Positions 1 through 64,000 of a stretch of 64,000 bases of DNA are shown here, piece by piece. Origin of the DNA: Cryomorphaceae bacterium 1068 (GTDB lineage Bacteria > Bacteroidota > Bacteroidia > Flavobacteriales_D > Cryomorphaceae). The translations under genes were made by a program, and so were the position numbers. The notes under the pieces were generated by a model, which saw only the letters and a list, made by a program, of their open reading frames with translations, had not been told where the DNA came from and ran no database searches. Position 1 is the stretch's first letter. Each line of letters opens with the position of its first letter. The stretch is taken from positions 1 through 64,000 of the forward strand of contig JAPVXR010000011.1 of the NCBI GenBank assembly GCA_027214385.1. The letters are read 5' to 3'.

Positions 1-1301
1 CATTGAACCTGCGTTTCAACACAAGTTGCAGCTTGCTCGCAAGAATCGTTTACGTTCCAATGTGGGTATAGATCTGCACCTGATGCAGCTGATACAGTAA
101 GAGGACTAAAACCGGCAGCAACTACAGGTCCGTCAAAAGAGCCTGATCGCACTGTGATATAACCACCTTCAACAATCGAAAACTCGATGTCTTCTCCTGC
201 AGGAACGCCAGTTATTGTCGAGTATTCCTCTTGGTAAGAACAAGTAGAGATACCGATCAATTCACCGTTTGGTCCTTCAGCAGTAATATCCGCACTTGCA
301 AAAGCAACTGTGTTTAAGCAGCTGTCGTCTGGAATTGGAGTACCTGCACAAACACAGTCCTCACCCAATACGTCATTTTCAGTATTTTCATCACCATCAT
401 CACAGGGGTCACCAATATTTCCATCCGGACAGTCAGTACCACAAGTGAGACATTGAACGGTTGTTTCAACACAGCTGGCATCTTGACCACAAGCCCCGTC
501 TGTATTCCAGTGCGGATAGAGGTCTGCACCACTCGCACCTAAAACAGTAACGGGAGATGTTCCTTGAGCGACAACGGGTCCGTCTACAGAATCAGTTCGT
601 ACGGTAATGTAACCGCCTTCAACAATAGCGAATTCAACGTCCGAACCTGCAGAAATTCCTGTTATAGTAGAGTATTCTTCTTGGTATGAGCATGTGCTGA
701 TGGTTAATAAAGCATCAGCAGCTCCGGTCAAATCTTCAGAACCAAACGATGATCCATTCAAACAATCACCTGTAAGTGGTTGGCCTGCGCAAACGCAGTC
801 TTCACCAATAACATCTCCAACGGTATTTGCATCACCATCGTCACAAGCGTCACCGATGTTTCCATCAGGACATTCCGTTGCACAAGACGTACACTGCACT
901 GAAGTAGCTAGACAGCTGGAAGCAGTAGCACAAGCGTCGTCTACGGTCCAGTGTGGGAACAGGTTTGACCCGCTGGCACCTGATACGGTAACCGGGCTAA
1001 AACCTTCTGCTACAACAGCACCTCCGGCAGAATCTGTTCTGACAGTGATGTATCCGCCCGTTGAAGAAGAAAATTCAATGTCTTCTCCTACAGGTACGCC
1101 TGTAATGGTAGAATACTCTTCTTCGTAAGAACAAGTAGAGATAGTGATCAATTCACCGTTTGGTCCGTCAACACTAATGTCAGCGCTACCGAAACTAGCG
1201 ACGTTTTGACATCCGCCTTGTGCGAATGCGGTTGACGAAATAAATGCGCCAAAAAGTATGGCGCAACAGACTGTCAACATTTTAGTTAAATGCATCTTCA
1301 T
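1..1301 (-). CDS. Secreted Cys-rich repeat protein, partial (C-terminus off the left edge)
   Basis: The frame is open from an ATG at 1301 to the window edge, so about 433 residues are visible. Residues 1-28 look like a signal peptide ending in FAQ. Tandem modules of about 148 residues follow, with first cysteines encoded near 1211, 764 and 320; the third module is cut by the edge. Each module has a CSYEEEYSTITG-like motif, a YITVR strand, a PHWNTD-like segment, several cysteines and a closing acidic CDDGD...CVCAG loop that resembles a calcium-binding loop. Leader, signal peptide and modules closely match the neighbour at 1637-3589, so this is a tandem paralogue. It is probably exported, and a T9SS sorting domain may follow outside the window. 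I do not recognise a named family for the module, and its ligand or role is unknown. Confidence 0.85.
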   Translation of the reverse strand, partial: MKMHLTKMLTVCCAILFGAFISSTAFAQGGCQNVASFGSADISVDGPNGELITISTCSYEEEYSTITGVPVGEDIEFSSSTGGYITVRTDSAGGAVVAEGFSPVTVSGASGSNLFPHWTVDDACATASSCLATSVQCTSCATECPDGNIGDACDDGDANTVGDVIGEDCVCAGQPLTGDCLNGSSFGSEDLTGAADALLTISTCSYQEEYSTITGISAGSDVEFAIVEGGYITVRTDSVDGPVVAQGTSPVTVLGASGADLYPHWNTDGACGQDASCVETTVQCLTCGTDCPDGNIGDPCDDGDENTENDVLGEDCVCAGTPIPDDSCLNTVAFASADITAEGPNGELIGISTCSYQEEYSTITGVPAGEDIEFSIVEGGYITVRSGSFDGPVVAAGFSPLTVSAASGADLYPHWNVNDSCEQAATCVETQVQ

Positions 1302-1332
1302 AAGAATTGTTTTTGGTTAATAATTTGGTTAA
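1302..1332 (-). repeat. Leader copy 1, identical to 3590-3620
   Basis: The 31 nt immediately upstream of the start codon are identical to the 31 nt upstream of the paralogue at 3589. On the coding strand the leader contains TTAACCAAA twice, 12 nt apart. It was duplicated together with the gene or is conserved for regulation. Confidence 0.9.
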
Positions 1333-1636
1333 AGAAGTGGGTATTGTCACTCCATAATAATTTAATTAGTTCGGCTAACCGTCGAATAGGGTCGACAAAA
1401 AGCCTTACAAGATCGACAAGTTACAATGGTTTTTGAAAGAATCAAAATCAATAGCAGAAATCATCAGTTTCTGCTATAAAGCATTGATAGTAAATCCAGT
1501 GAGATTGGATTTTTTTTGTGGAGATGTACAAGACACTAGATATTGACAAAAAGGCTGACATTTAATAATCTAGCGCAGCGTAATTAAAAAGCCGTCTACC
1601 CATAGGGCAGACGGCTTTCAATGAATAACTGACTGC
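1333..1636. other. Intergenic region, no gene
   Basis: No convincing reading frame is present. The stretch holds the upstream region of the gene starting at 1301, including an ACCGTCG motif at 1378-1384 that recurs at nearly the same distance upstream of the paralogue, and the terminator of the 1637-3589 gene. No exact TAnnTTTG box was found for the 1301 gene. Confidence 0.7.
1586..1618 (-). terminator. Rho-independent terminator of the 1637-3589 gene
   Basis: A 7-bp stem GCCGTCT/AGACGGC (1591-1597 and 1609-1615), extended by an inner CCC/GGG, is followed on the minus strand by a run of five U from 1590-1586. It lies about 20 nt past the stop codon at 1637. Confidence 0.85.
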
Positions 1637-3589
1637 TTATTTTGCAATCATGAATTTGTCATTTACTACTTCGTTTTCAGTAGTCAGACGGTAAATGTAC
1701 ACTCCGTTAGGGAGGTTAGATCCGTCAAACTCGAAACGGTAATCGTTTCCTGCTTGAGCATTTCCTGCAAACAAACCGTCAACAAGACGTCCGCTCATAT
1801 CGAATACTTCAAGAGTTGTGTAGCTATCTTCTGCAACTGTGAAAGTTACGTTAGACTGACCCTCAGTTGGGTTAGGCAATGAAGAAATTGCTGCTCCACC
1901 TGGAGTAGTAAACGGTTGCCAAGTTGTGAATGGACCTGCTACTAGTGGAGTTTGAGAACATCCACATCTCACTTGCCATTCGTAATCTGTGCCAGGCTGA
2001 AGAACTCCACCAGGGATGTTGAACGAGCTTGCACCAGCCCCACCGATTATCTGAGCGCCAAGAATACTCGAAGCACCAGCTAATCTAACTCTGATTTGAC
2101 ATCCAATCTGACCTGCAACAGCATCCCACTCCGTTAAGAATGAATTACCAGTGAAGGTAGTGCTAAGGCTTGCTTCATCAACAGCAGGGAATGGATCTGC
2201 ACAACTAGACTCACAGTCTAGAGATACGGTGATGTCACCAGCGTCGAAATAGGCGTATGTGCGCACGTAGTAGACTCCTGCAGCAGGAGCTTCCAAAGTT
2301 ATACCTTCTCCAGAACCAGCACTTAAACCAGTGTCTGAACAAGCTACTTCCGTTAGGCTTTCACAATCTCCGGAGTAGATAAAAAGAACTGCGTCAATAA
2401 GAGAACCTTCACCAGGTAATACGGTTACAGTGTAATTGTCTGTACCGTTAGCTTGGAATGCATACCACACATCATCAGGAGTGGTTGATGTAAACCCACC
2501 ACATAAATTATTCAAGCCTTCAGTTTGATTAGCACCTACTGTAGTACCTGTAACGGTAGCGCCACAAGCAAGAAGCGAACTTACATCATCACAGTCATCA
2601 TTTGCTAATGGCACCGTACCGCCTGCGCAAGAGCAGTCAGGTTGTATAGTTGATCCTTCAGTCAAAGGATCACCATCATCACATGGGTCACCAATGTTTC
2701 CTCCGGGACAAGTAGCTGGACAAGTAGTGCACTGAGCTGTTGTTGTTACACAATTGGTTGCTGTTTGACAAGCACCGTCAGTATTCCAATGAGCATACAA
2801 GTTATTGCTAGCTGAAGCAGAGAAAGTAAGAGGTGAAGAACCTTGAGCGACAACGGGGCCATTCAAAGAGTCAAATCTTACTGTAATATATCCACCTTCA
2901 ACAATGGCAAGCTGGTAAGTCTCTCCAGCGACAACTCCAGAGATTTCAGAATACTCAGTTTGAAAAGAACAAGTGCTGATTGTTACAACTTCAGATGCTG
3001 CAAGAGAGAGGTCTGCAGATCCAAAAGCAGACGAGTTAAGGCAATCTCCAGTGGCTTGCAATCCTGCGCAAACGCAGTCTTCACCTATCGTATCACCAAC
3101 AGTCGTTTCATCACCATCGTCACATGGATCACCGATGTTTCCTTCAGGACACTGTGTGTCGCAAGAAACGCATTGAACGGTAGTCACTACACATTGAGCA
3201 AGTGTACCGCAAGCATCGTCTGTATTCCAATGTGGGAAGAGGTCTGCACCGCTTGCAGCAGATACAGTGAGAGGGCTAAAACCTTCCGCTACAATCGCAC
3301 CAGCCGCAGAATCACGACGTACTGTGATGTAACCTCCGTCTCCGTCAGCATCAAGAGTAAACTGAATATCCTCACCTGCAGGAACTCCTGTAATTGTAGA
3401 GTACTCCTCTTCATAAGAACAAGTAGAAATACCAATCAATTGACCATTAGGTCCTTCAACGGTAATGTCGGCACTTGCAAAAGCGGCAGTGTTCAAACAG
3501 CCACCTTGGGCCATTACGTTAGACGTCATGAAAGCGCCAAATACGATGGCGCAACAGACTGTAAACATTTTAGTAAAATGCATCTTCAT
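1637..3589 (-). CDS. Secreted Cys-rich repeat protein with T9SS sorting domain
   Basis: A 650-residue exported protein. Residues 1-28 are a signal peptide ending VMAQ. Two Cys-rich modules start at C31 and C183 and match those of the gene at 1-1301. Residues about 330-455 form a beta-sandwich like bacterial pre-peptidase or CUB-like domains (DDVWYAF, YYVRTYAYFDAGDITV). About 456-565 resembles a fibronectin-III fold (YEWQVRCGC). About 569-650 is a type A T9SS sorting domain with PNPTEG, LEVFDMSGR and GVYIYRLTT, ending DKFMIAK. The protein should cross the outer membrane through T9SS and be anchored or released. No catalytic motif is visible; adhesion or ligand binding is an inference. Its terminator is at 1586-1618. 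Confidence 0.92.
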   Translation of the reverse strand: MKMHFTKMFTVCCAIVFGAFMTSNVMAQGGCLNTAAFASADITVEGPNGQLIGISTCSYEEEYSTITGVPAGEDIQFTLDADGDGGYITVRRDSAAGAIVAEGFSPLTVSAASGADLFPHWNTDDACGTLAQCVVTTVQCVSCDTQCPEGNIGDPCDDGDETTVGDTIGEDCVCAGLQATGDCLNSSAFGSADLSLAASEVVTISTCSFQTEYSEISGVVAGETYQLAIVEGGYITVRFDSLNGPVVAQGSSPLTFSASASNNLYAHWNTDGACQTATNCVTTTAQCTTCPATCPGGNIGDPCDDGDPLTEGSTIQPDCSCAGGTVPLANDDCDDVSSLLACGATVTGTTVGANQTEGLNNLCGGFTSTTPDDVWYAFQANGTDNYTVTVLPGEGSLIDAVLFIYSGDCESLTEVACSDTGLSAGSGEGITLEAPAAGVYYVRTYAYFDAGDITVSLDCESSCADPFPAVDEASLSTTFTGNSFLTEWDAVAGQIGCQIRVRLAGASSILGAQIIGGAGASSFNIPGGVLQPGTDYEWQVRCGCSQTPLVAGPFTTWQPFTTPGGAAISSLPNPTEGQSNVTFTVAEDSYTTLEVFDMSGRLVDGLFAGNAQAGNDYRFEFDGSNLPNGVYIYRLTTENEVVNDKFMIAK

Positions 3590-3620
3590 AAGAATTGTTT
3601 TTGGTTAATAATTTGGTTAA
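3590..3620 (-). repeat. Leader copy 2, identical to 1302-1332
   Basis: This is the 31-nt leader of the 1637-3589 gene, base-for-base identical to the leader of the downstream paralogue. Upstream of it the two regions diverge, apart from the ACCGTCG motif at 3665-3671. Confidence 0.9.
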
Positions 3621-50247: not shown

Positions 50248-50300
50248 ATTTTCGTAGTTCGTTGCTCGTTTGAAAATAGCATTTACAATCTACGAATTTC

Positions 50301-50329
50301 GCACTACGCACTACGCACTACGCACTACG
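50301..50329. repeat. Tandem heptamer array, four copies of GCACTAC
   Basis: Four perfect 7-bp units GCACTAC (50301-50328) plus one base. The right half runs into the 3' end of the dehydrogenase gene, whose last codons and TAG stop are made of the repeat. Related heptamers occur at 56122-56128, 61344-61357 and, as a different unit, at 61131-61155. Confidence 0.95.
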
Positions 50330-51295
50330 AATAACCACCTTTCCCGTATGCTCAGCCTTACCAAACCGTTTGATGGCCCAAGGCGTTTTCTCAAAAGGGT
50401 AGGGGCCGTCTATCTCGCATTTCAGTTTTCCATCGGCATGCAGCTGCTCTATTTCGGGAAGATCTTTGTTGGCTTTCACCGCGACCATCAAAAGCTTCTT
50501 TTTGGCGATCAGCTTGATCAATCCACTTAGCAAGAGCATCGCAATGAGTTTGCCTGATTGGCCGCCGATGGATACATATCTCCCTTTTGGCTTGAGCGCT
50601 CTCAAGTGCGCCAAAGGCCATCGTGAAGTGCGGCAATCCAAGATGAGGTCGAATTTCTCTCCACTGCAAGTAAAGTCTTCTTTCCGGTAATCGATGACTT
50701 TTTTACAACCCATCTCAATCATCCGATCCCGTTTTTGACCGGAGTCTACCCCCGTGATTTCTGCTTCGTATGTTTTGGCGATTTGTATGCCGAGCATGCC
50801 CACGCCGCCGCCGCCTCCATTGATTAAAACCTTTTCTCCTTTTTTAATTTGCCCCAAATCTTTCAATCCCTGCATGGCCAAGGCCGAGGCATGAGGCAAG
50901 GCCACTCCTTCCGTAAAGGAGAGTTCATCGGGCATTTTTCGAAGGGCCTTTTCATTGAGCGACATGTATTCGGCCAAGCTTCCAAACCCATGATCGGAAG
51001 TGTCGCCGTAAACCCTATCACCGATCTGAAGGTTTTTCACATCCGCACCGACCTTCTCAACGATACCCGCTACCTCCATCCCAGGGTGACGCATCTTTTT
51101 TCTCGGTTTAAATAGCCCAAAGAAAAGACGATAGGCAAACGGAGTACCTGAAGTTAAAGCCCAATCGTAATCATTGATGGAAGAGGCTTTTACTTTCAAA
51201 AGCACCTCGTTGGCCGAGGGCTCAGGGATTTCAACCGTCTGAATTTGGAGCACTTCTTCAGGGTCTCCGTAGTGTTCGAGGTAGAAGGTTTTCAT
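50318..51295 (-). CDS. MDR-family alcohol dehydrogenase / quinone oxidoreductase-like
   Basis: A 325-residue medium-chain dehydrogenase/reductase. The N-terminal domain has EVLLKVKASSINDYDWALTS and HPGMEVAGIVEKVGADVKNL; the NADP-binding domain has KVLINGGGGGVGMLGIQIAK. Cysteine ligands for zinc are not evident, so it fits the zinc-free quinone-oxidoreductase group. Substrate unknown. ATGs at 51304 and 51295 both begin the frame; I use 51295 because a near-consensus -7 box (CATCTTTG) at 51309-51316 would start transcription about at 51302. The final codons CGT AGT GCG and the TAG stop lie inside the heptamer array at 50301-50329. Confidence 0.86.
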   Translation of the reverse strand: MKTFYLEHYGDPEEVLQIQTVEIPEPSANEVLLKVKASSINDYDWALTSGTPFAYRLFFGLFKPRKKMRHPGMEVAGIVEKVGADVKNLQIGDRVYGDTSDHGFGSLAEYMSLNEKALRKMPDELSFTEGVALPHASALAMQGLKDLGQIKKGEKVLINGGGGGVGMLGIQIAKTYEAEITGVDSGQKRDRMIEMGCKKVIDYRKEDFTCSGEKFDLILDCRTSRWPLAHLRALKPKGRYVSIGGQSGKLIAMLLLSGLIKLIAKKKLLMVAVKANKDLPEIEQLHADGKLKCEIDGPYPFEKTPWAIKRFGKAEHTGKVVIRSA

Positions 51296-56010: not shown

Positions 56011-56148
56011 CATTCTCCCCCGAGCTGTAGCGAGCTCAGTGTACTCATCTTTTAGACCTTAACTCGCAAAATACTTCTCTGTGTCCTCTGTGCAACAAAC
56101 CTCCGCGCCCAATCGATCTACGCACTACTCAATACGCCTAAACCCTAT
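56011..56148. repeat. Duplicated 3' flank, copy A
   Basis: 138 bp between CATTCTCC at 56011 and the stop of the giant gene at 56149. It aligns with 61240-61377: shared blocks are CATTCTCC, CGAGCT-TAGCGAGCTCAGTG, a CACAGAGGA-type 9-bp periodic block on the minus strand, CGCCCAATCGA and the CTAC heptamer. The block GAGCT...AGCTC can form a short hairpin. No gene is visible here. Confidence 0.8.
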
Positions 56149-59100
56149 TTACCAAACGAACTTCTCCGTAGCCATCTCTTGACCATTCGACAACCGCAAC
56201 AAATAAGCTCCATTAGCCAAATCTGGATAAATGGTTCCAAATCCATTTCCACCGTTTTCGAGAGATTCTACGTGCACTCGTTTTCCGAGTAGATCGAAAA
56301 CTTCAACGGTCACAAAAGGAGCGGTAGCGTGGTAGATGACGTTGAGTCCTTCCTGGGCGTGATAGACCTGATCGAGTGCAAAATCGCCGTTTGAAAGCAC
56401 TTCGACCGCCTGCGGTTCGCTCAAGGTAGAGGTTCCGTCGAAATCGGTTTGGCGCAGGCGGTAGTATGATATTCCCGTATATGGTCTTTGGTCGGTGAGG
56501 GAGTAGGAGAGTTCGGTGTGGGAATCGCCTGCACCTTCAATGGTTCCTACCTGCTCCCAAAAAATTCCGTCTTTGGATCGCTCGATGGAAAAGAAATCGT
56601 TGTTGATTTCGGTGGCGGTAATCCAATCGGTGATGACTTGTTGCCCTTTCGCTTCCGCTTGAAAGGAGAGGAGGGTGATGGGGAGGACGTTTGAATTCCC
56701 CACCTCAGGACCCGAAAGAACAAACTCTCCATAATCACTTCCAACGGCTACCCCAACGGCCTGATCCAATTCTATTTCAGTACCATTGTCAGCTGATGGA
56801 ATTTCATCCCACGAGAATCCATTCCATCTCGAAATACGGATGAATTCGGGTGCACCAACTACATTGCAATATTCGGGATCAGAGTTGGTAAATCGCACGC
56901 CAAATATGGGGTCAGCAGTGCCCGCTACTTGTTCAAACCTCCAGTAGTCGCAGTTACCAATTTCTTGGAAATCGTTAATATTATTTGATTCTCCGTCGTA
57001 GTACAGCCCTGCGTTCGGATGCTCTTCGGCATAATATCGCGCTGAAAAACCACTGGTTCCGGTCAGTCCAAACATGACAAGTGGTTGGTAAAAGCTACCC
57101 CCATCAGCGTGCGTATCGCCTATAGGGAAGTCAAAATCGGCTGAACCAAACTTCACCACGGTACCGTCTACAAAACTGGCATTACTCATTCCAATCGCTG
57201 TAGCTGAAGTTGAGAATTCTACATCCGCGGGATTCGAAGCCAGATCATCAATTTCATAAATACCGTCAATAAATCGAGCTTCTCGATTTACGTTTAAAGA
57301 AAACTCTGTAAAGAAGTCACCTGCTGGTTTATTGATTTCAAATTCGTTTACCGATAAGGCATTTCCATCGCCGATTCCTAGCTGATCACCATTTCCCGAC
57401 AGGACTAGTTGCCCGCGGCCCGCAACTGTTGATGATGTGAAATCCAAAGAGCCTTCTACTGTGAGATCACCCTTGACTTCTATTCCCGTTCCTTCATTAC
57501 TTCCACCTGTATCGTTATTAGTGAGCGTAGAGCCCGCTTGAATAATCAATTCTCCATTAACCAAAATCGGATCAGTATTCAGGTTATTGGTTATCATCGT
57601 ATATCCTCCTGTTCCACTTCCTCCAATGTTTAAGTTTCCATAAATGACCGGGCGACTGGAAGAACCTTGAAAGAAATACAAGTTAGATCCGGGAGTATAG
57701 TTTCCGCCAACATTATTTTCAAAAGTGAGGTTGGGATAATACATGTCAGTAGAGGCAACAGAAACTTCGTTCACCGCTTCTCTTCTGTATATCCAGTTAG
57801 CCGTAGCCGGGATGTTTACGATACCCGTCTCGTAATTGTCTCTATATCGACTTACCGATGAGGTGTTGGTTTTGATGATGGTAGCACCTGGCGCAATTTC
57901 CCAAGTGGCGTCGGTATTAAATTCAATTCCATCAGGCGAAGAAGCTTGATCGAAATAAGTGCCGTTGATAGTGAAATCTGCCCCACTCACCTCTCCATTA
58001 TTGATGAAGAGTTCACCTCCCTCGCCGATTGCTAAAACACCATTCGAATTCACATCTAACTCATCAATGGTGATGGCAACATTGTCTAGAAAGATTGAGT
58101 CTCCACTCAAGATATTCACTTTCGAAGAACCACTTTCAGTAGGGTATTGGCAGGCCGCCACATAACTTCCAAACTCCGTATCGCTCATCTGCCAATTGGC
58201 GACATTGGTCCAATCACCACTGCCGTTTGAACGATAGAAAGCACGGGTTTCGTAAGTGTACTGGGCAGCGTTGCTAGACCTCGTACAGTCGGGAGTGCCA
58301 TCTGCTGTGATGTCTACATAAAATTGGTAATCGAGTAAGCTTGCGGTGTTTCCGGTAATGGTAATCGATGAAGTCCCTGAGCCAGTGACGATCAAACCAT
58401 TCACACCATTTAACGAGCTGACCAATTCCCATGTATCCGTGCCAGGCTCATTGTAACGCCACACGTAAGGGTTAGTGGGATTAAATATTGGGTCTGCCGT
58501 TGCGGTCACGCTAAACGTCAATGCGGAGCAATCAACATCCAATGGCTGCGTACTAATGGTAACATCAGACCCATTTGGGACGAAAGGTGCGATACCTAGA
58601 TCGTCGCACACTTCGTTTGCTCCGATAGTCCAGTCGGCTGCCATATAGGTGGTCGAGGGAGAGGTAACACTGCCGTTTCTGGACTGACTAAAACCAGGCT
58701 GAGAGCCACCGCTTCCGCCAGCATCGGGATGGTTTGGGTTGGGTGCGTAATCTAGGTCTGCATTGTTTTTTCTAAGGTAGATTCTGTCATCGCCGTTAAA
58801 ACCGGGGGCTAAGGGAAGATCTTGATCCGGACTAAAATTTGAACAGGTGGATGAACTTGATCCTAAGCGTAAGATATACGTATCACCACTCGCTAAATTC
58901 CCCGTCATCGGGTAATCACTATCGGTAGAGGTTCCGGTGCGTATTCGAATCACATAATTATCAGTTGCCAGATTTACAGTAGCATTGGTCCCATTGAAGA
59001 TCTCAACGTAACTCAGGCTTCCTGAATTCGCGTCATACACTTCACTTATAAAGAGGTCGCTCGCAAAGGAGCCACCGCCACCTGAGGCACCGCAGTCTCC

Positions 59101-60726
59101 ATCATCCACGAGTAAAGTGAAATTTTGACCTGATTGAGTTTCGCATCCCGCGACCGTAACTCCGATACTCCCTGAGGTAGCGTTCTCTGGAATTTCTGCA
59201 ATGATGGTGTTGTCGTCTATAACAGTAATTGATGTGGCATTGATACCGCTAAGCGAGGCGGCTGTGGCACCAGTGAATCCGCTACCCGAAATGGTGACTA
59301 GGGTTCCTGCCGGGCCTGAAGTTGGAAGGATTGATGTAATTGCATGAGTTGGCGTGCAGGAAGGGGCAATTCCGCATATTTTTACATTGTCAATAATACC
59401 ATAATCTCCGCCTCCATTCTGTTCAGCACCAATAACAATAGATGCCGTTAATGTTCCAGGAGATAGATTAACAGTAACCGTTCCGCTTGCAGAAGTATTA
59501 CTCGTTCCATCCACTAATTGGACTTCGCCGATGCTTAGTCCATCTTCGAATACTTCATAAAAAAGATCGTCACCTCCGTCAAATTCAAATACTTTATAGT
59601 CAAAACTTATGGTGGCGGCGGTATAGCCCGCTATATTTTGATTGCTGAAAGTCAATTCGTGACGAAAACTTCCTCCTCCGTTTCCATTATTCAAATCCTG
59701 CATTGCCCAGAGATTCGTGCCATCTGTTGCATTTAACCCAAGAAAAGGAGAGCCCTCAATGTCCCAGACATCTCCCGATACATTATAAGGCACAGGTGAG
59801 GCTGTATAGCTCCACGAATCCCCTACTTCAAAACTTTGAATCGCAATACATATTGGCCCATTATCCGTTGTGCAGTCCGTTTGAGGAGCGGCAGGACTGG
59901 TTTTATAATCAATGGTTGATCCTGAGTTGGAATAGGACCAAATCTTAAAGAAATATTGGGTATTGGGATCTAGGCCGCTGATTGAGGCCGATTCTATTCC
60001 TTGATTTACCGTTGTTGAATTTGGACCGTTTGAATCAGAAAGATCAGTGGGATTTGAGATGGCTGCATAGCTCACATCCGACCATTTGATAAGGTAGCCA
60101 TCTGGTAGATCAGTTCCTATGGCATCCGTCCAGGTAAGGTCAATCTGATCATCAGAGAAGGTGGTGCAAGAAAAGAGGGTGGGGTGGTTGGTCGGTTCGG
60201 GGTTGCTCGAGCCACTAAAAACAGATAGTTCCAAATCGTCAATAATCAAGTGTCCAGGGTTATCATCGCTGAGGATTCGTACCTGCAGATTACTACTTCC
60301 GTTATTAATAGAATACGAATACTGTTGATAAGACTGACCTGAATATGCCTGAGTAGCTACAGTAGAAAAAGTGACACCATCAGTTGAAGTTTGAATTTCA
60401 AAAGTCCCTCCACCAGAATTCAACTCACGGTACCAAAAAATGATATCACCAATTCCATTTTGAGCAGGAGAGGTGAGGTATGAGTTTGGAATGTCGTCAT
60501 TAATTCGAGCAGCCGCTGTACCAGTCCTGGAGTTTCCAGAAGACTCTCTGAAAACATTCCTAACCTCCCAACTACCGCTAGAGAGACTCACATTTCCTGT
60601 TGTATACGAGCCTGGGAGTCCAGTTTCAAAACCTTCTGATATTTGTGACTGTCCAATCTCAGCAAAAATCAAAAAGATGAATAGAAAGAAAAACCTCTCG
60701 ACGGAAGTTAATGACGAAATAAGCAT
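56149..60726 (-). CDS. Giant multidomain T9SS cargo protein
   Basis: A 1525-residue secreted protein. Residues about 10-28 are a signal peptide ending GQS. Then come a jelly-roll/MAM-like domain (about 30-170), a fibronectin-III-like domain (about 180-285), a second jelly roll (290-450), an IPT/TIG domain (ITSILPTSGPAGTLVTISG, about 460-540) and a lamin-tail-like domain (DLFISEVYDANSGSLSYVEI, about 560-690). A long beta-helix-like part (about 840-1200) precedes a conserved LPITLLSFQAE module and a type A T9SS sorting domain ending EKFVW. No enzyme motif is seen; adhesion is an inference. The last 180 residues are a near copy of those at 61378. Confidence 0.9.
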   Translation of the reverse strand: MLISSLTSVERFFFLFIFLIFAEIGQSQISEGFETGLPGSYTTGNVSLSSGSWEVRNVFRESSGNSRTGTAAARINDDIPNSYLTSPAQNGIGDIIFWYRELNSGGGTFEIQTSTDGVTFSTVATQAYSGQSYQQYSYSINNGSSNLQVRILSDDNPGHLIIDDLELSVFSGSSNPEPTNHPTLFSCTTFSDDQIDLTWTDAIGTDLPDGYLIKWSDVSYAAISNPTDLSDSNGPNSTTVNQGIESASISGLDPNTQYFFKIWSYSNSGSTIDYKTSPAAPQTDCTTDNGPICIAIQSFEVGDSWSYTASPVPYNVSGDVWDIEGSPFLGLNATDGTNLWAMQDLNNGNGGGSFRHELTFSNQNIAGYTAATISFDYKVFEFDGGDDLFYEVFEDGLSIGEVQLVDGTSNTSASGTVTVNLSPGTLTASIVIGAEQNGGGDYGIIDNVKICGIAPSCTPTHAITSILPTSGPAGTLVTISGSGFTGATAASLSGINATSITVIDDNTIIAEIPENATSGSIGVTVAGCETQSGQNFTLLVDDGDCGASGGGGSFASDLFISEVYDANSGSLSYVEIFNGTNATVNLATDNYVIRIRTGTSTDSDYPMTGNLASGDTYILRLGSSSSTCSNFSPDQDLPLAPGFNGDDRIYLRKNNADLDYAPNPNHPDAGGSGGSQPGFSQSRNGSVTSPSTTYMAADWTIGANEVCDDLGIAPFVPNGSDVTISTQPLDVDCSALTFSVTATADPIFNPTNPYVWRYNEPGTDTWELVSSLNGVNGLIVTGSGTSSITITGNTASLLDYQFYVDITADGTPDCTRSSNAAQYTYETRAFYRSNGSGDWTNVANWQMSDTEFGSYVAACQYPTESGSSKVNILSGDSIFLDNVAITIDELDVNSNGVLAIGEGGELFINNGEVSGADFTINGTYFDQASSPDGIEFNTDATWEIAPGATIIKTNTSSVSRYRDNYETGIVNIPATANWIYRREAVNEVSVASTDMYYPNLTFENNVGGNYTPGSNLYFFQGSSSRPVIYGNLNIGGSGTGGYTMITNNLNTDPILVNGELIIQAGSTLTNNDTGGSNEGTGIEVKGDLTVEGSLDFTSSTVAGRGQLVLSGNGDQLGIGDGNALSVNEFEINKPAGDFFTEFSLNVNREARFIDGIYEIDDLASNPADVEFSTSATAIGMSNASFVDGTVVKFGSADFDFPIGDTHADGGSFYQPLVMFGLTGTSGFSARYYAEEHPNAGLYYDGESNNINDFQEIGNCDYWRFEQVAGTADPIFGVRFTNSDPEYCNVVGAPEFIRISRWNGFSWDEIPSADNGTEIELDQAVGVAVGSDYGEFVLSGPEVGNSNVLPITLLSFQAEAKGQQVITDWITATEINNDFFSIERSKDGIFWEQVGTIEGAGDSHTELSYSLTDQRPYTGISYYRLRQTDFDGTSTLSEPQAVEVLSNGDFALDQVYHAQEGLNVIYHATAPFVTVEVFDLLGKRVHVESLENGGNGFGTIYPDLANGAYLLRLSNGQEMATEKFVW

Positions 60727-60751
60727 TTACAATCGGTTAAGTACTATCCAA

Positions 60752-60759
60752 CGAAGATA
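60752..60759 (-). promoter_or_regulatory. Possible -7 box (TATCTTCG) of the giant gene
   Basis: TATCTTCG on the minus strand, the same variant as at 45540, with a predicted start near 60745 and a leader of about 19 nt to the ATG at 60726. No -33 TTG is visible at the usual spacing. Confidence 0.45.
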
Positions 60760-60871
60760 CCCATTTTAACCCTGACCGCTAAGGCCTTAACATTACCGTA
60801 TTGTAAACGATTCGTTCATTTTTATAAACAGTATCCCAAAGAAACATGGGAAATCAGGAGCCTTAAGCTTT

Positions 60872-60934
60872 CTGCCTGAAGCCTGCAGCATACTGCCTGT
60901 AGCCTACAGCACAAAGCCTGAAGCCCGCTACCCA
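60872..60934. repeat. Imperfect tandem repeat, three copies of 21 bp
   Basis: Copies at 60872-60892, 60893-60913 and 60914-60934 share the core GCCTGNAGCC. Each copy is itself built of shorter CTG/AGC words. Confidence 0.85.
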
Positions 60935-60964
60935 CAAACCCACCTCCAACACCTATCCTCAAGT

Positions 60965-60997
60965 ATACTTATCCCATACCTATCCCATACCTATCCC
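60965..60997. repeat. Tandem repeat, three copies of ATACCTATCCC
   Basis: Copies at 60965-60975 (one mismatch), 60976-60986 and 60987-60997, period 11 bp. Confidence 0.9.
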
Positions 60998-61130
60998 TAA
61001 CCAACTCCTATTCATTTCCTTTTTTGGTCTCAAATCATCCCGTTCGGGTCATAATTGGACAATTGCAGACAATCTTTCCCAATTATTCTGTCAAATCACT
61101 ATTCCGGATAGATTGTGAAATTTTAATTAC

Positions 61131-61155
61131 GACCATCGACCATCGACCATCGACC
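61131..61155. repeat. Tandem heptamer array, GACCATC x3.6
   Basis: Three perfect copies at 61131-61151 and a partial GACC. The period equals that of the array at 50301, but the unit differs. Confidence 0.93.
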
Positions 61156-61215
61156 TCGCCCCAAATCTCCCTTATCTCATGACGATTTGCTTGCAGCTGG
61201 CAGCCAAGTCCCAAT

Positions 61216-61233
61216 TTACCAAACAACCTTTTC
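61216..61233 (-). pseudogene. Vestige of a third T9SS sorting-domain end (EKVVW-stop)
   Basis: On the minus strand 61233-61216 reads GAA AAG GTT GTT TGG TAA, that is EKVVW-stop. The two large cargo genes end EKFVW-stop, and bases after the stop (ATTGG) also resemble those after the 56149 gene (ATAGG). It lies directly beyond copy B of the duplicated flank and has no intact coding sequence behind it. Confidence 0.5.
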
Positions 61234-61239
61234 ACGCCT

Positions 61240-61377
61240 CATTCTCCACCGAGCTTTAGCGAGCTCAGTGCCCTCGTCTTTCAGGCTTTGCTTGTCAAGA
61301 CCTCTCCGCGTCCTCGGTGTAAGAAAATTCAGCACGCCCAATCGAGCTACGAGCTACGAATTGCGCCCTTCGAACTA
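61240..61377. repeat. Duplicated 3' flank, copy B
   Basis: 138 bp from CATTCTCC at 61240 to the stop of the cargo gene at 61378, the same length as copy A at 56011-56148. It shares the GAGCT-TAGCGAGCTC block, the periodic GAGGACGCGGAG-type block on the minus strand and CGCCCAATCGAGCTAC. It contains the heptamer GAGCTAC twice (61344-61357). Confidence 0.8.
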
Positions 61378-64000
61378 CTACCAAACAAACTTCTCAGTAT
61401 CCATTTCACTCCCGTGTGAGAGTTTCAGTACATAAGCTCCGCGTGCCAAGTCGGGATGAATCGTAGCGAATCCGTTTCCATAATTCTCTAGGAGTTCACC
61501 ATGGATGCGCTTTCCGAGTAGATCATAGATCTCTACTACTACATAAGGCGCCGTTGATCGGTAAACTAAGTTGAGACCGTCCTGCCCACGGTAAACTTTG
61601 TCCAGACCGAAGTCGCTTCCTTGAAGAATCTCGACTGCTCTAATCTCGCTTACGGTGGTCGTTCCGTCAAAATCAGTTTGACGCAATCGATAGTAGGAAA
61701 TACCCGAATAAGGGGCGTCGTCTACAAAAGCATAAGCCAACTCCGTATTCGAATCACCGGCACCTTCTACCGTTCCCACTTCTTCCCAAGAACTACCGTC
61801 CTTGGATCGTTCTACGGTAAAGAAGTCATTGTTGATCTCGGAAGCAGTGATCCAGTTGGTATGAACCAAATCGTCCTTGACTTCGGCTTGGAAGGAAAGG
61901 AGGGTGATGGGGAGGACATTTGTTGTATTTGATGTAGCAATTGTAAATGGACTAAACGAAGAGATTGTTCCAGAGGTCACAGCTCCTACGGTGTATGGAA
62001 TAGGAGCGATACCGGAACCACCTACATCCTCCCACTCGCTTCCATTCCATCGTGCTACTCTCAAGTCAGCTGGATCCTGAATATCATAACACGTTGTAGA
62101 ATCTTTCCATTGAAGCTGCAATTGAGCGTCGATTGCAGGGCCAAAACGATTGACCTCCCAATAATTACAAGTCGAAGCCGAGACTAATCCCGGACCTAAT
62201 GGTGGAGGATTACTTGGGAAGCTGGTTCCAGGCAAATAGTTTTGGTGTATGTATTCAATACTGAATTCAAGTGCCGCATTGGTTGATGATGCGATTATAC
62301 CCGCAGGGCTCCAAACGGATACGGTATCACCAGGGCTAACGACCTCAAAATATCCAACTGGGAAAATACCTACAGTGCTGGCAAAACCATCTTTTCGAAC
62401 CACTCCATTAACATAAGAATTGAGTGCTCCACCACTAGGTAAGACATTGCTTCCAAAAATTACTTCTTCGCCTCCTAGCGGGTGGATAATACCTCCTAGG
62501 AAATCGGCATTGCCATTGATGCGGATATCACTTACCAGTTGCACGCCTTCCGCCAATTCTGAAGTATTTTGAATCACGATATCGTCAAAAACTTCTTCTC
62601 CCACACTTGAAATGGTTTGAACTTCAGAACCTACAAAATGAACCGTGCCCGTTTCGGTAACTGCACTTTCTCCCGCGAGATTGTTCCAATTTCCACCGAG
62701 GAATAACTCCTGACCATTGATGTTGAGGTTTCCGTTGCTTTCAATCTTCAGCTCATCCAGAACAGTTACGTCTTCTTGAAGCGTTTTCACCCCTGTATTA
62801 GCAAAAGTCAATTTAAAGAATACCTCTGAAGCTACTCCTCCAAAAGTATTAATGGTCTGGCTTTCAGTTCCGTTGAAAATAACCTCTTGCCCAGTTGGGT
62901 TAAATGCACTCGTTGCGCCTGATCGATTCCAATCTCCACCTATTTCGAATGTCCCTGAGTTCGTCGTGAGCGTAAACTGACTTCCCGTAATGGTTAGATC
63001 GTTCCTCAGTGAACGCGGGCTATTTAGTGTTAGGTCAGTACTCGCATCCCCCGAGCTTTCTACGTTGTATGGAATTCCTGGATTTCCTGAGGCAATGTCT
63101 CCATTATCCCAAGTTACATCATCTGCATCGACAACATAGCTGAAACCGTTTGCGAAACGAAGTAATGATGAATTTCCGTAATAACAAGAATTGAGGATGG
63201 CGTACCCACCTCCGGCTACCTCAAGTATTCCGTCGATCTTGGTTGGATTGCCTGTACCAAAATCAAAGCCTCCGTTTCCAATTCTGACTAGTACATCTTC
63301 CTCAAAAAGTAGTTTTGTGTTATTTTGGGAAACCACTTGCTTCGTTCTAAATCCAGGGTCAGTTCCACCTGTACCAATAGCTTGAAAAACGCTACTCGGA
63401 GATCCCGTTACACGACAAGTGTCAACTCCATCCACAATGATTTGCGCATCAAAAGCACCAGCACCTGCTACATTCTCAGCTGCCGAAAGTGTGTTGTTTC
63501 CTAAATCCAATGTGGAATTCACCATGCGAAGATCGCCGTTGAAGGTGCGATCGTCATTCAATGCTACCGATATCGATCCTGAAGCTCCGTTCAGGAATAA
63601 CTCGTCAACAGCATCGACATCTGATGAGAACTCAAACGAGCTGGTCATGGTGCCGGTATATTCAATATCGTATTGATCTGATCCAACTACCAATGGCTCT
63701 TTGTCAATCGTGGATGAGGTAGCTTCACGAAGGATTTTAGAATTATCCTCCATGATAAGGTTGGCATTACTTGTCGTAAAATCGAAGGCACCTTCAGTAA
63801 GCCTTAATCTATTATTAATGGTCAGGTTATCTGTTACACTCACGGTACCGCCTGTGAAGTTTACCGCAAGAAAATCAAATGTAAGGACACCGGAAATGGA
63901 GCTAGTTGAAGAGGCTCCATTAATCATAATCACCTCTCTATCATTGGGGTTAAACGTTCCTGATAGCAGAGAGAAATTTTCTTTTACAAATAGGTCTCCT
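61378..64000 (-). CDS. Large T9SS cargo protein, partial (N-terminus off the right edge)
   Basis: The frame is open from the right edge to a TAG stop at 61378, giving about 874 visible residues; the GTG at 63933 is an internal Val, as coding sequence continues upstream (GDLFVKENFSLLSGTFNPND). The visible part is a long beta-helix-like array with regularly spaced strands (VTDNLTINNRLRLTEGAF, LRMVNSTLDLGNNTLSAAEN, LDELKIESNGNLNINGQELF), then WEVNRFG and the LPITLLSFQAEVKDDLVHTN module, and a type A T9SS sorting domain ending in EKFVW. The last 180 residues closely match those of the 56149 gene, with the rest much more diverged. It is likely a cell-surface or secreted adhesin-like protein; no catalytic motif is visible. 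Confidence 0.88.
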   Translation of the reverse strand, partial: GDLFVKENFSLLSGTFNPNDREVIMINGASSTSSISGVLTFDFLAVNFTGGTVSVTDNLTINNRLRLTEGAFDFTTSNANLIMEDNSKILREATSSTIDKEPLVVGSDQYDIEYTGTMTSSFEFSSDVDAVDELFLNGASGSISVALNDDRTFNGDLRMVNSTLDLGNNTLSAAENVAGAGAFDAQIIVDGVDTCRVTGSPSSVFQAIGTGGTDPGFRTKQVVSQNNTKLLFEEDVLVRIGNGGFDFGTGNPTKIDGILEVAGGGYAILNSCYYGNSSLLRFANGFSYVVDADDVTWDNGDIASGNPGIPYNVESSGDASTDLTLNSPRSLRNDLTITGSQFTLTTNSGTFEIGGDWNRSGATSAFNPTGQEVIFNGTESQTINTFGGVASEVFFKLTFANTGVKTLQEDVTVLDELKIESNGNLNINGQELFLGGNWNNLAGESAVTETGTVHFVGSEVQTISSVGEEVFDDIVIQNTSELAEGVQLVSDIRINGNADFLGGIIHPLGGEEVIFGSNVLPSGGALNSYVNGVVRKDGFASTVGIFPVGYFEVVSPGDTVSVWSPAGIIASSTNAALEFSIEYIHQNYLPGTSFPSNPPPLGPGLVSASTCNYWEVNRFGPAIDAQLQLQWKDSTTCYDIQDPADLRVARWNGSEWEDVGGSGIAPIPYTVGAVTSGTISSFSPFTIATSNTTNVLPITLLSFQAEVKDDLVHTNWITASEINNDFFTVERSKDGSSWEEVGTVEGAGDSNTELAYAFVDDAPYSGISYYRLRQTDFDGTTTVSEIRAVEILQGSDFGLDKVYRGQDGLNLVYRSTAPYVVVEIYDLLGKRIHGELLENYGNGFATIHPDLARGAYVLKLSHGSEMDTEKFVW

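Follow-up and report, generated by a model that had tools for sequence, protein, structure and literature searches.

Two giant genes whose products differ over most of their length were found to be followed by matching 138-bp 3' flanks, which raises the question of why they share them. The genes are tandem neighbours on the minus strand of the window, a 64,000-nucleotide stretch of the 4.3-Mb genome of Cryomorphaceae bacterium 1068 (labelled G000 among the compared genomes). The initial annotation explained the flanks by a cassette of sorting domain plus flank that could fit new passengers with a T9SS signal. Our analysis favored another answer, which we consider probable: the flank is an intergenic solo repeat copy of GxxExxY mini-elements, which was duplicated or converted together with the gene tail and stands outside the secretion system.

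The C-termini of the two proteins were homologous over the last 182 residues, consistent with the annotated length of about 180. The remainder diverged as had been claimed, with an amino acid identity of about 20-25% upstream that rose to about 75% within one 40-column step at the tail boundary. The description of the tails as near copies was too strong, because they were only 69% identical and 58% of the fourfold sites were different (42% identity). Gene 1 matched PF18962 (Por_Secre_tail) weakly, with 20.2 bits, below the Pfam cut-off of 27, and the part of gene 2 in the window gave no match to PF18962, the only T9SS model applied. The 138-bp flank behind both genes was confirmed, and the shared blocks GAGCTNTAGCGAGCTCAGTG and CACMGAGGACRCRGAGA attributed to it were both found. 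The two flanks were about 76% identical over 119 bp (E 1e-15), and their local alignment score was 93, whereas 500 shuffled pairs reached at most 36. At the outer flank edge, the similarity between the two loci stopped abruptly. Tail and flank formed a single homologous block of about 690 bp with abrupt edges; the annotated unit of sorting domain plus flank thus described this pair fairly, but no further copy of it was found at the tail-bearing loci and homologues read. Outward from the stop codon, each flank consisted of a short 7-bp-periodic stretch (CGTAGNN), a private block of about 10 bp, and an 84-bp dispersed repeat (Table 1). The private block TCGATTGGGC was absent beside the remaining copies of the repeat, and the two flank copies were mutual nearest relatives (75% identity, within about 50 to 79% for the whole family). 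The shared block beside the repeat, together with this nearest relationship, points to a common origin of the flank pair through duplication or conversion rather than to two insertions.

Table 1. Coordinates in the window of the two giant genes, their tails, and the components of their 3' flanks.
Feature	Position	Strand	Basis
Giant gene 1, 1525 aa; LTD and fn3 domains, weak Por_Secre_tail	56149..60726	-	ORF and Pfam
Giant gene 2, 3' part (61378 to beyond 63999, leaves the window)	61378..63999	-	ORF
Gene 1 C-terminal tail, 182 codons, homologous to gene 2 tail (69% aa)	56152..56697	-	sequence comparison
Gene 2 C-terminal tail	61381..61926	-	sequence comparison
3' flank 1, 138 bp, gene 1 stop codon out to 56011	56011..56148	-	flank alignment
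3' flank 2, 138 bp, gene 2 stop codon out to 61240	61240..61377	-	flank alignment
7-bp-periodic stretch and private block, GTAGTGCGTAGATCGATTGGGC (flank 1)	56107..56128	-	alignment
7-bp-periodic stretch and private block, GTAGCTCGTAGCTCGATTGGGC (flank 2)	61336..61357	-	alignment
84-bp dispersed repeat (model R1), copy 1: TTRCACMGAGNNCRCRGAGA - spacer - GAGNNCACHGAG - hairpin - GAGA	56013..56096	-	86.4 bits, E 7e-19; copy used in model building
Dispersed repeat (model R1), copy 2	61242..61323	-	81.2 bits, E 1e-17; copy used in model building
Copy 1 hairpin GAGCT-cgctac-AGCTC	56022..56037	-	per-copy stem search
Copy 2 hairpin GAGCT-cgctaa-AGCTC	61251..61266	-	per-copy stem search

Other repetitive DNA was observed in the window and its genome. 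Between the giant genes, two arrays were present at positions 60872-60997, namely a degenerate one of GCCTGNA (7/21 bp) and one of ATACCTATCCC (11 bp). Long diverged direct repeats with a spacing of about 441 bp covered positions 96-3620 and were probably part of a gene for a repetitive protein. Contigs of the assembly broke within T9SS tail domains (C24:2-166, C28:2-166, C28:4494-4976, and C7:1-480), which suggests further near-identical tails of tandem giant genes.

The 84-bp dispersed repeat, which forms the main block of the flank, is present there as a solo copy with neither a gene nor a paired partner. A covariance model of this repeat, R1, was built from seven copies, including both flank copies, and the genome was searched with it at E<1e-3. 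The search returned 13 copies, of which the seven training copies matched by construction and the other six scored E 1e-9 to 7e-4. All 13 were intergenic and lay between protein-coding frames, the one overlap involving a reading frame extended at its 5' end. The common architecture was kept across the 13 places, with a spacer of about 30 nt between TTRCACMGAGNNCRCRGAGA and GAGNNCACHGAG. The stem sequences varied (GAGCT, GATCGC, GAACGC, CATCGC, and AATCGC), forming a covarying hairpin, and the summed best stems reached 65 bp, whereas 500 shuffles gave no more than 45; the stem was located separately in each copy and misplaced in two. Some copies were arranged as inverted pairs (C20:38692+/39186-, C20:15541+/15672-, and C1:625158+/625273-).

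The proposal that tail and flank form a portable unit giving new passengers a T9SS signal was compatible with the single homologous block of this pair, and it was examined across the genome, where the tail search found 27 places. The 3' flanks of 23 other tail-bearing loci were read and the flank was absent behind all of them, many ending instead in ordinary hairpin-plus-T terminators; it was also absent at ten homologues in relatives. The annotation had regarded wide occurrence of the flank without sorting domains as evidence against a cassette, and such occurrence was found for the main block: its 11 copies outside the flank pair were all away from detected sorting domains, none being within 10 kb of a tail match. 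Because no third copy was found at these loci and the repeat block was dispersed in this way, the sorting-domain cassette was rejected, and we consider it very improbable. Behind one sorting-domain gene (C3:101099), the 3' flank contained another dispersed palindrome, TTCGGCTCCGCTCA / TGAGCGGAGCCGAA, which was also repeated.

The R1 copies at C20:38692(+) and C20:39186(-) faced each other across an ORF of 123 amino acids. This ORF matched TIGR04256 (GxxExxY) with 141.8 bits and PF13366 (PDDEXK_3) with 136.7 bits, both above the curated cut-offs. No GxxExxY gene was found between the copies of the two other inverted pairs. In G001, a genome of the same genus, the asparaginase and MFS transporter genes abutted directly and the element was absent, whereas in our genome the two genes were separated by about 660 bp containing the GxxExxY gene and the repeats. 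The site was thus represented by an occupied allele and, at the level of gene order only (74% amino acid identity), a vacant one, and for this reason loss in G001 is formally possible. The flanks of the site were too diverged between the two genomes for the element ends or a target-site duplication to be resolved.

Among 64 distinct GxxExxY proteins, the residues D67, E77, and K79 were conserved in 98%, 97%, and 100%, respectively, and G22, G24, and Y30 in 100%. The predicted structure (pLDDT 94.5) had a PD-(D/E)XK fold. The nearest structures in Foldseek were chains of Cas4 (SSO0001), lambda exonuclease, and RecE; these matches were weak, with one below E 1e-3 and a TM of about 0.5, and no solved homologue was found by sequence search. 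The conservation of D67, E77, and K79 argues that the selected function of the protein is cutting nucleic acid.

PF13366 was present in 23 of the 80 relatives, with up to six genes per genome and some copies broken. Eight distant matches came from seven genomes of Kiritimatiellota and allied groups and Ignavibacteria, which had been picked for holding PF13366. Inspection of GxxExxY flanks showed inverted short-unit arrays at most loci, the sequence of which was lineage-specific and differed between genomes. The flanks of 67 distinct GxxExxY loci from several phyla were analyzed by the best inverted match between 250 bp upstream and 250 bp downstream, and the control consisted of 431 windows shifted along these loci. 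The median inverted score was 33 compared with 18 in the controls (p=4e-29); 69% of the loci were above the control 99th percentile, and about 31% had no significant inverted score. Counted per genome, 19 of 25 had at least one GxxExxY locus over the threshold, with 0.7 expected. The share of flanks in which exact 6-mers recurred was 24% at 8 bp, 30% at 9 bp, and 19% at 10 bp, compared with 4, 12, and 4% in the controls, a clearer result than that of the simple period scan, which gave only a weak 8-10-bp signal. Clean arrays surrounded the gene on a Gemmatirosa replicon and on a Bacteroides plasmid, where the order was CCACAGAGGACGCAGAGGACACGGAGG - gene - CTCTGTGACCTCTGTGTCCTCTGTGG. In one relative, G032, the ends of a GxxExxY element were found at more than 20 places, some of them forming inverted pairs that enclose no gene (for example locus L254) and others half-sites. 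Paired CACRRAG motifs were also counted in the 80 genomes, and the mean was 4.65 with a GxxExxY gene versus 0.60 without (Mann-Whitney p=5e-6, uncorrected for phylogeny); at least five matches occurred in 8 of 23 genomes with the gene and in none of 57 without it. The reversed-pattern control was also slightly higher with the gene (1.2 versus 0.6, p=0.007). Taken over several phyla, the bracketing of GxxExxY suggests a kind of small mobile element that has not been described.

In another genome, G072, equal-scoring tandem GxxExxY genes (L085 and L107, C10:165220-166269) lay 699 bp apart inside repeated palindromic array modules. The family was found in only 8 plasmid records, and none of 50,697 phage records matched it, on which grounds a phage origin was rejected.

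A second small-protein family was associated with arrays of a different unit length. Genes of PF05635 (S23/IVP, "four helix bundle") were present in 51 of the 80 relatives and were bracketed by inverted arrays, with a median inverted score of 31 compared with 18 in the control (67 loci, p=1e-26). In their flanks, 6-mers recurred at 7 bp in 43% versus 4.5% of the control and at 14 bp in 37% versus 2.7%. Between hemH and lpd, which were named by eye from the translated gene ends, G032 carried GxxExxY in CACTAAG arrays and G016, of the same genus, an S23 gene in 7-bp arrays; the comparison of these two genomes contained no vacant allele. The flank of the giant genes carries a trace of both array classes, namely the 7-bp-periodic stretch and the GxxExxY-type repeat. 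Elsewhere in the window, clean 7-bp arrays of the class found around S23/IVP genes were observed at 50296-50336 (CGCACTA) and 61128-61159 (CGACCAT). The CGACCAT-type array resembled those at the S23/IVP gene of the same genome (C10:146251), which has an in-frame TAG and lies between inverted 7-bp arrays.

These observations can be accommodated by the following mechanism, in which mobility is deduced from comparative evidence. A GxxExxY gene with its inverted repeats would form a mini mobile element, and its nuclease would recognise the short-unit arrays or their hairpins and cut there. Repair or recombination after cutting would spread the arrays and leave behind solo copies such as the T9SS-gene flank. 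The block of about 690 bp would then have been duplicated or converted between the tandem neighbours, so that the two T9SS genes came to share the flank. REP sequences are dispersed intergenic hairpin repeats that also occur as inverted pairs (REPINs), and RAYT is the REP-associated tyrosine transposase (HUH, Y1). The arrays would spread in a manner similar to that of REP sequences by RAYT transposases, although through a different nuclease.

Part of the evidence is also compatible with a constrained 3' RNA element, for instance a terminator, an mRNA stabiliser, or a regulatory hairpin, that is kept by selection whatever its origin. Such an element could have the covarying hairpin and the position of the copies between genes, and the identity of the flanks (65-76%) exceeded that at the fourfold sites of the tails. 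However, gene conversion copying could equally account for the flank identity, the copies also form inverted pairs around a gene, no intrinsic (U-tract) terminator was called at either flank, and Rfam gave no match at the seven loci searched. We regard this explanation of the flank as unlikely.

A lower probability was assigned to the possibility that a regulatory or chromosome-organising protein binds the arrays and that GxxExxY, as a cargo or a regulator, became trapped between two of its sites. A report on Geobacter metallireducens describes multicopy sites of short units, paired on opposite strands and similar in consensus, which were proposed as binding sites of a global regulator (PMC2700814). 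Sites of this kind leave unexplained why two unrelated small-protein families each have their own array class and why multi-copy genes occur with broken copies, and the explanation seems quite doubtful. GxxExxY could still be a passenger or a regulator instead of the mobiliser. Independent low-complexity expansion by slippage, with similar arrays arising by chance, would suit short units and degenerate arrays. It is scarcely credible given the score of the flank pair far above the shuffles, the repeat architecture common to 13 places, and the inverted placement at two gene families far above local controls. The solo repeat copy, duplicated or converted with the gene tail, remained our preferred reading of the flank.

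For the flank itself, the secretion-cassette idea gives way to a commonplace event in which a gene tail and a repeat were duplicated locally. The wider meaning concerns intergenic arrays of short units, for example heptamers and CACAGAG repeats, which are found in many bacterial genomes and have no accepted origin. A statistical link ties them to two specific, widespread small-protein families, one of which is likely a nuclease; it provides a testable cause for the arrays and suggests what the proteins that annotations call only "GxxExxY protein" and "four helix bundle protein" may do. We tentatively propose, at somewhat less than even chances, that GxxExxY with 8-10-bp arrays and S23/IVP with 7-bp arrays are the dedicated partners of the two common bacterial intergenic classes of short-unit array, that they are together undescribed cross-phylum mini mobile elements, and that gene-less remnants of them, the present flank among these, make up much unexplained intergenic repeat. 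No report linking GxxExxY to such arrays was found in open-access texts (exclusive of bioRxiv preprints and supplements), and a literature search with the array sequence strings gave an unrelated match only; the association across phyla appears to be undescribed.

Among the known systems, REP/RAYT is similar in its dispersed intergenic hairpin repeats, single or in inverted pairs, and in having a nuclease gene between inverted copies. The bracketed enzyme is a PD-(D/E)XK protein (TIGR04256/PF13366) instead of an HUH (Y1) transposase, and the repeat is 84 bp long with short-unit boxes and present in 13 copies, not hundreds. The Geobacter sites (PMC2700814) and the TAACTGA heptamer arrays of Beggiatoaceae, Cyanobacteria, and Bacteroidetes (PMC4679880) are likewise intergenic and composed of short tandem units, and the class 2 consensus TCTCCGTS of Geobacter resembles the reverse complement of CACGGAG. 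No mention of GxxExxY or S23 was found in the main texts of these two papers. The 23S rRNA IVS of Coxiella burnetii, 428 nt long, is a selfish element whose S23 ORF is flanked by inverted repeats (PMC4990558). It shares the small ORF between inverted repeats with the elements analyzed here, in which the S23/IVP genes lie outside rRNA and within inverted 7-bp arrays. The C20 element differs from it by carrying GxxExxY with 8-10-bp units in place of S23/IVP, and R1 lies between protein-coding genes instead of in rRNA, from which RNase III excises an IVS. T9SS C-terminal sorting domains are the counterpart of the homologous tails in which both giant genes end, with the weak Por_Secre_tail match of gene 1, whereas the flank behind them is no part of the secretion system.
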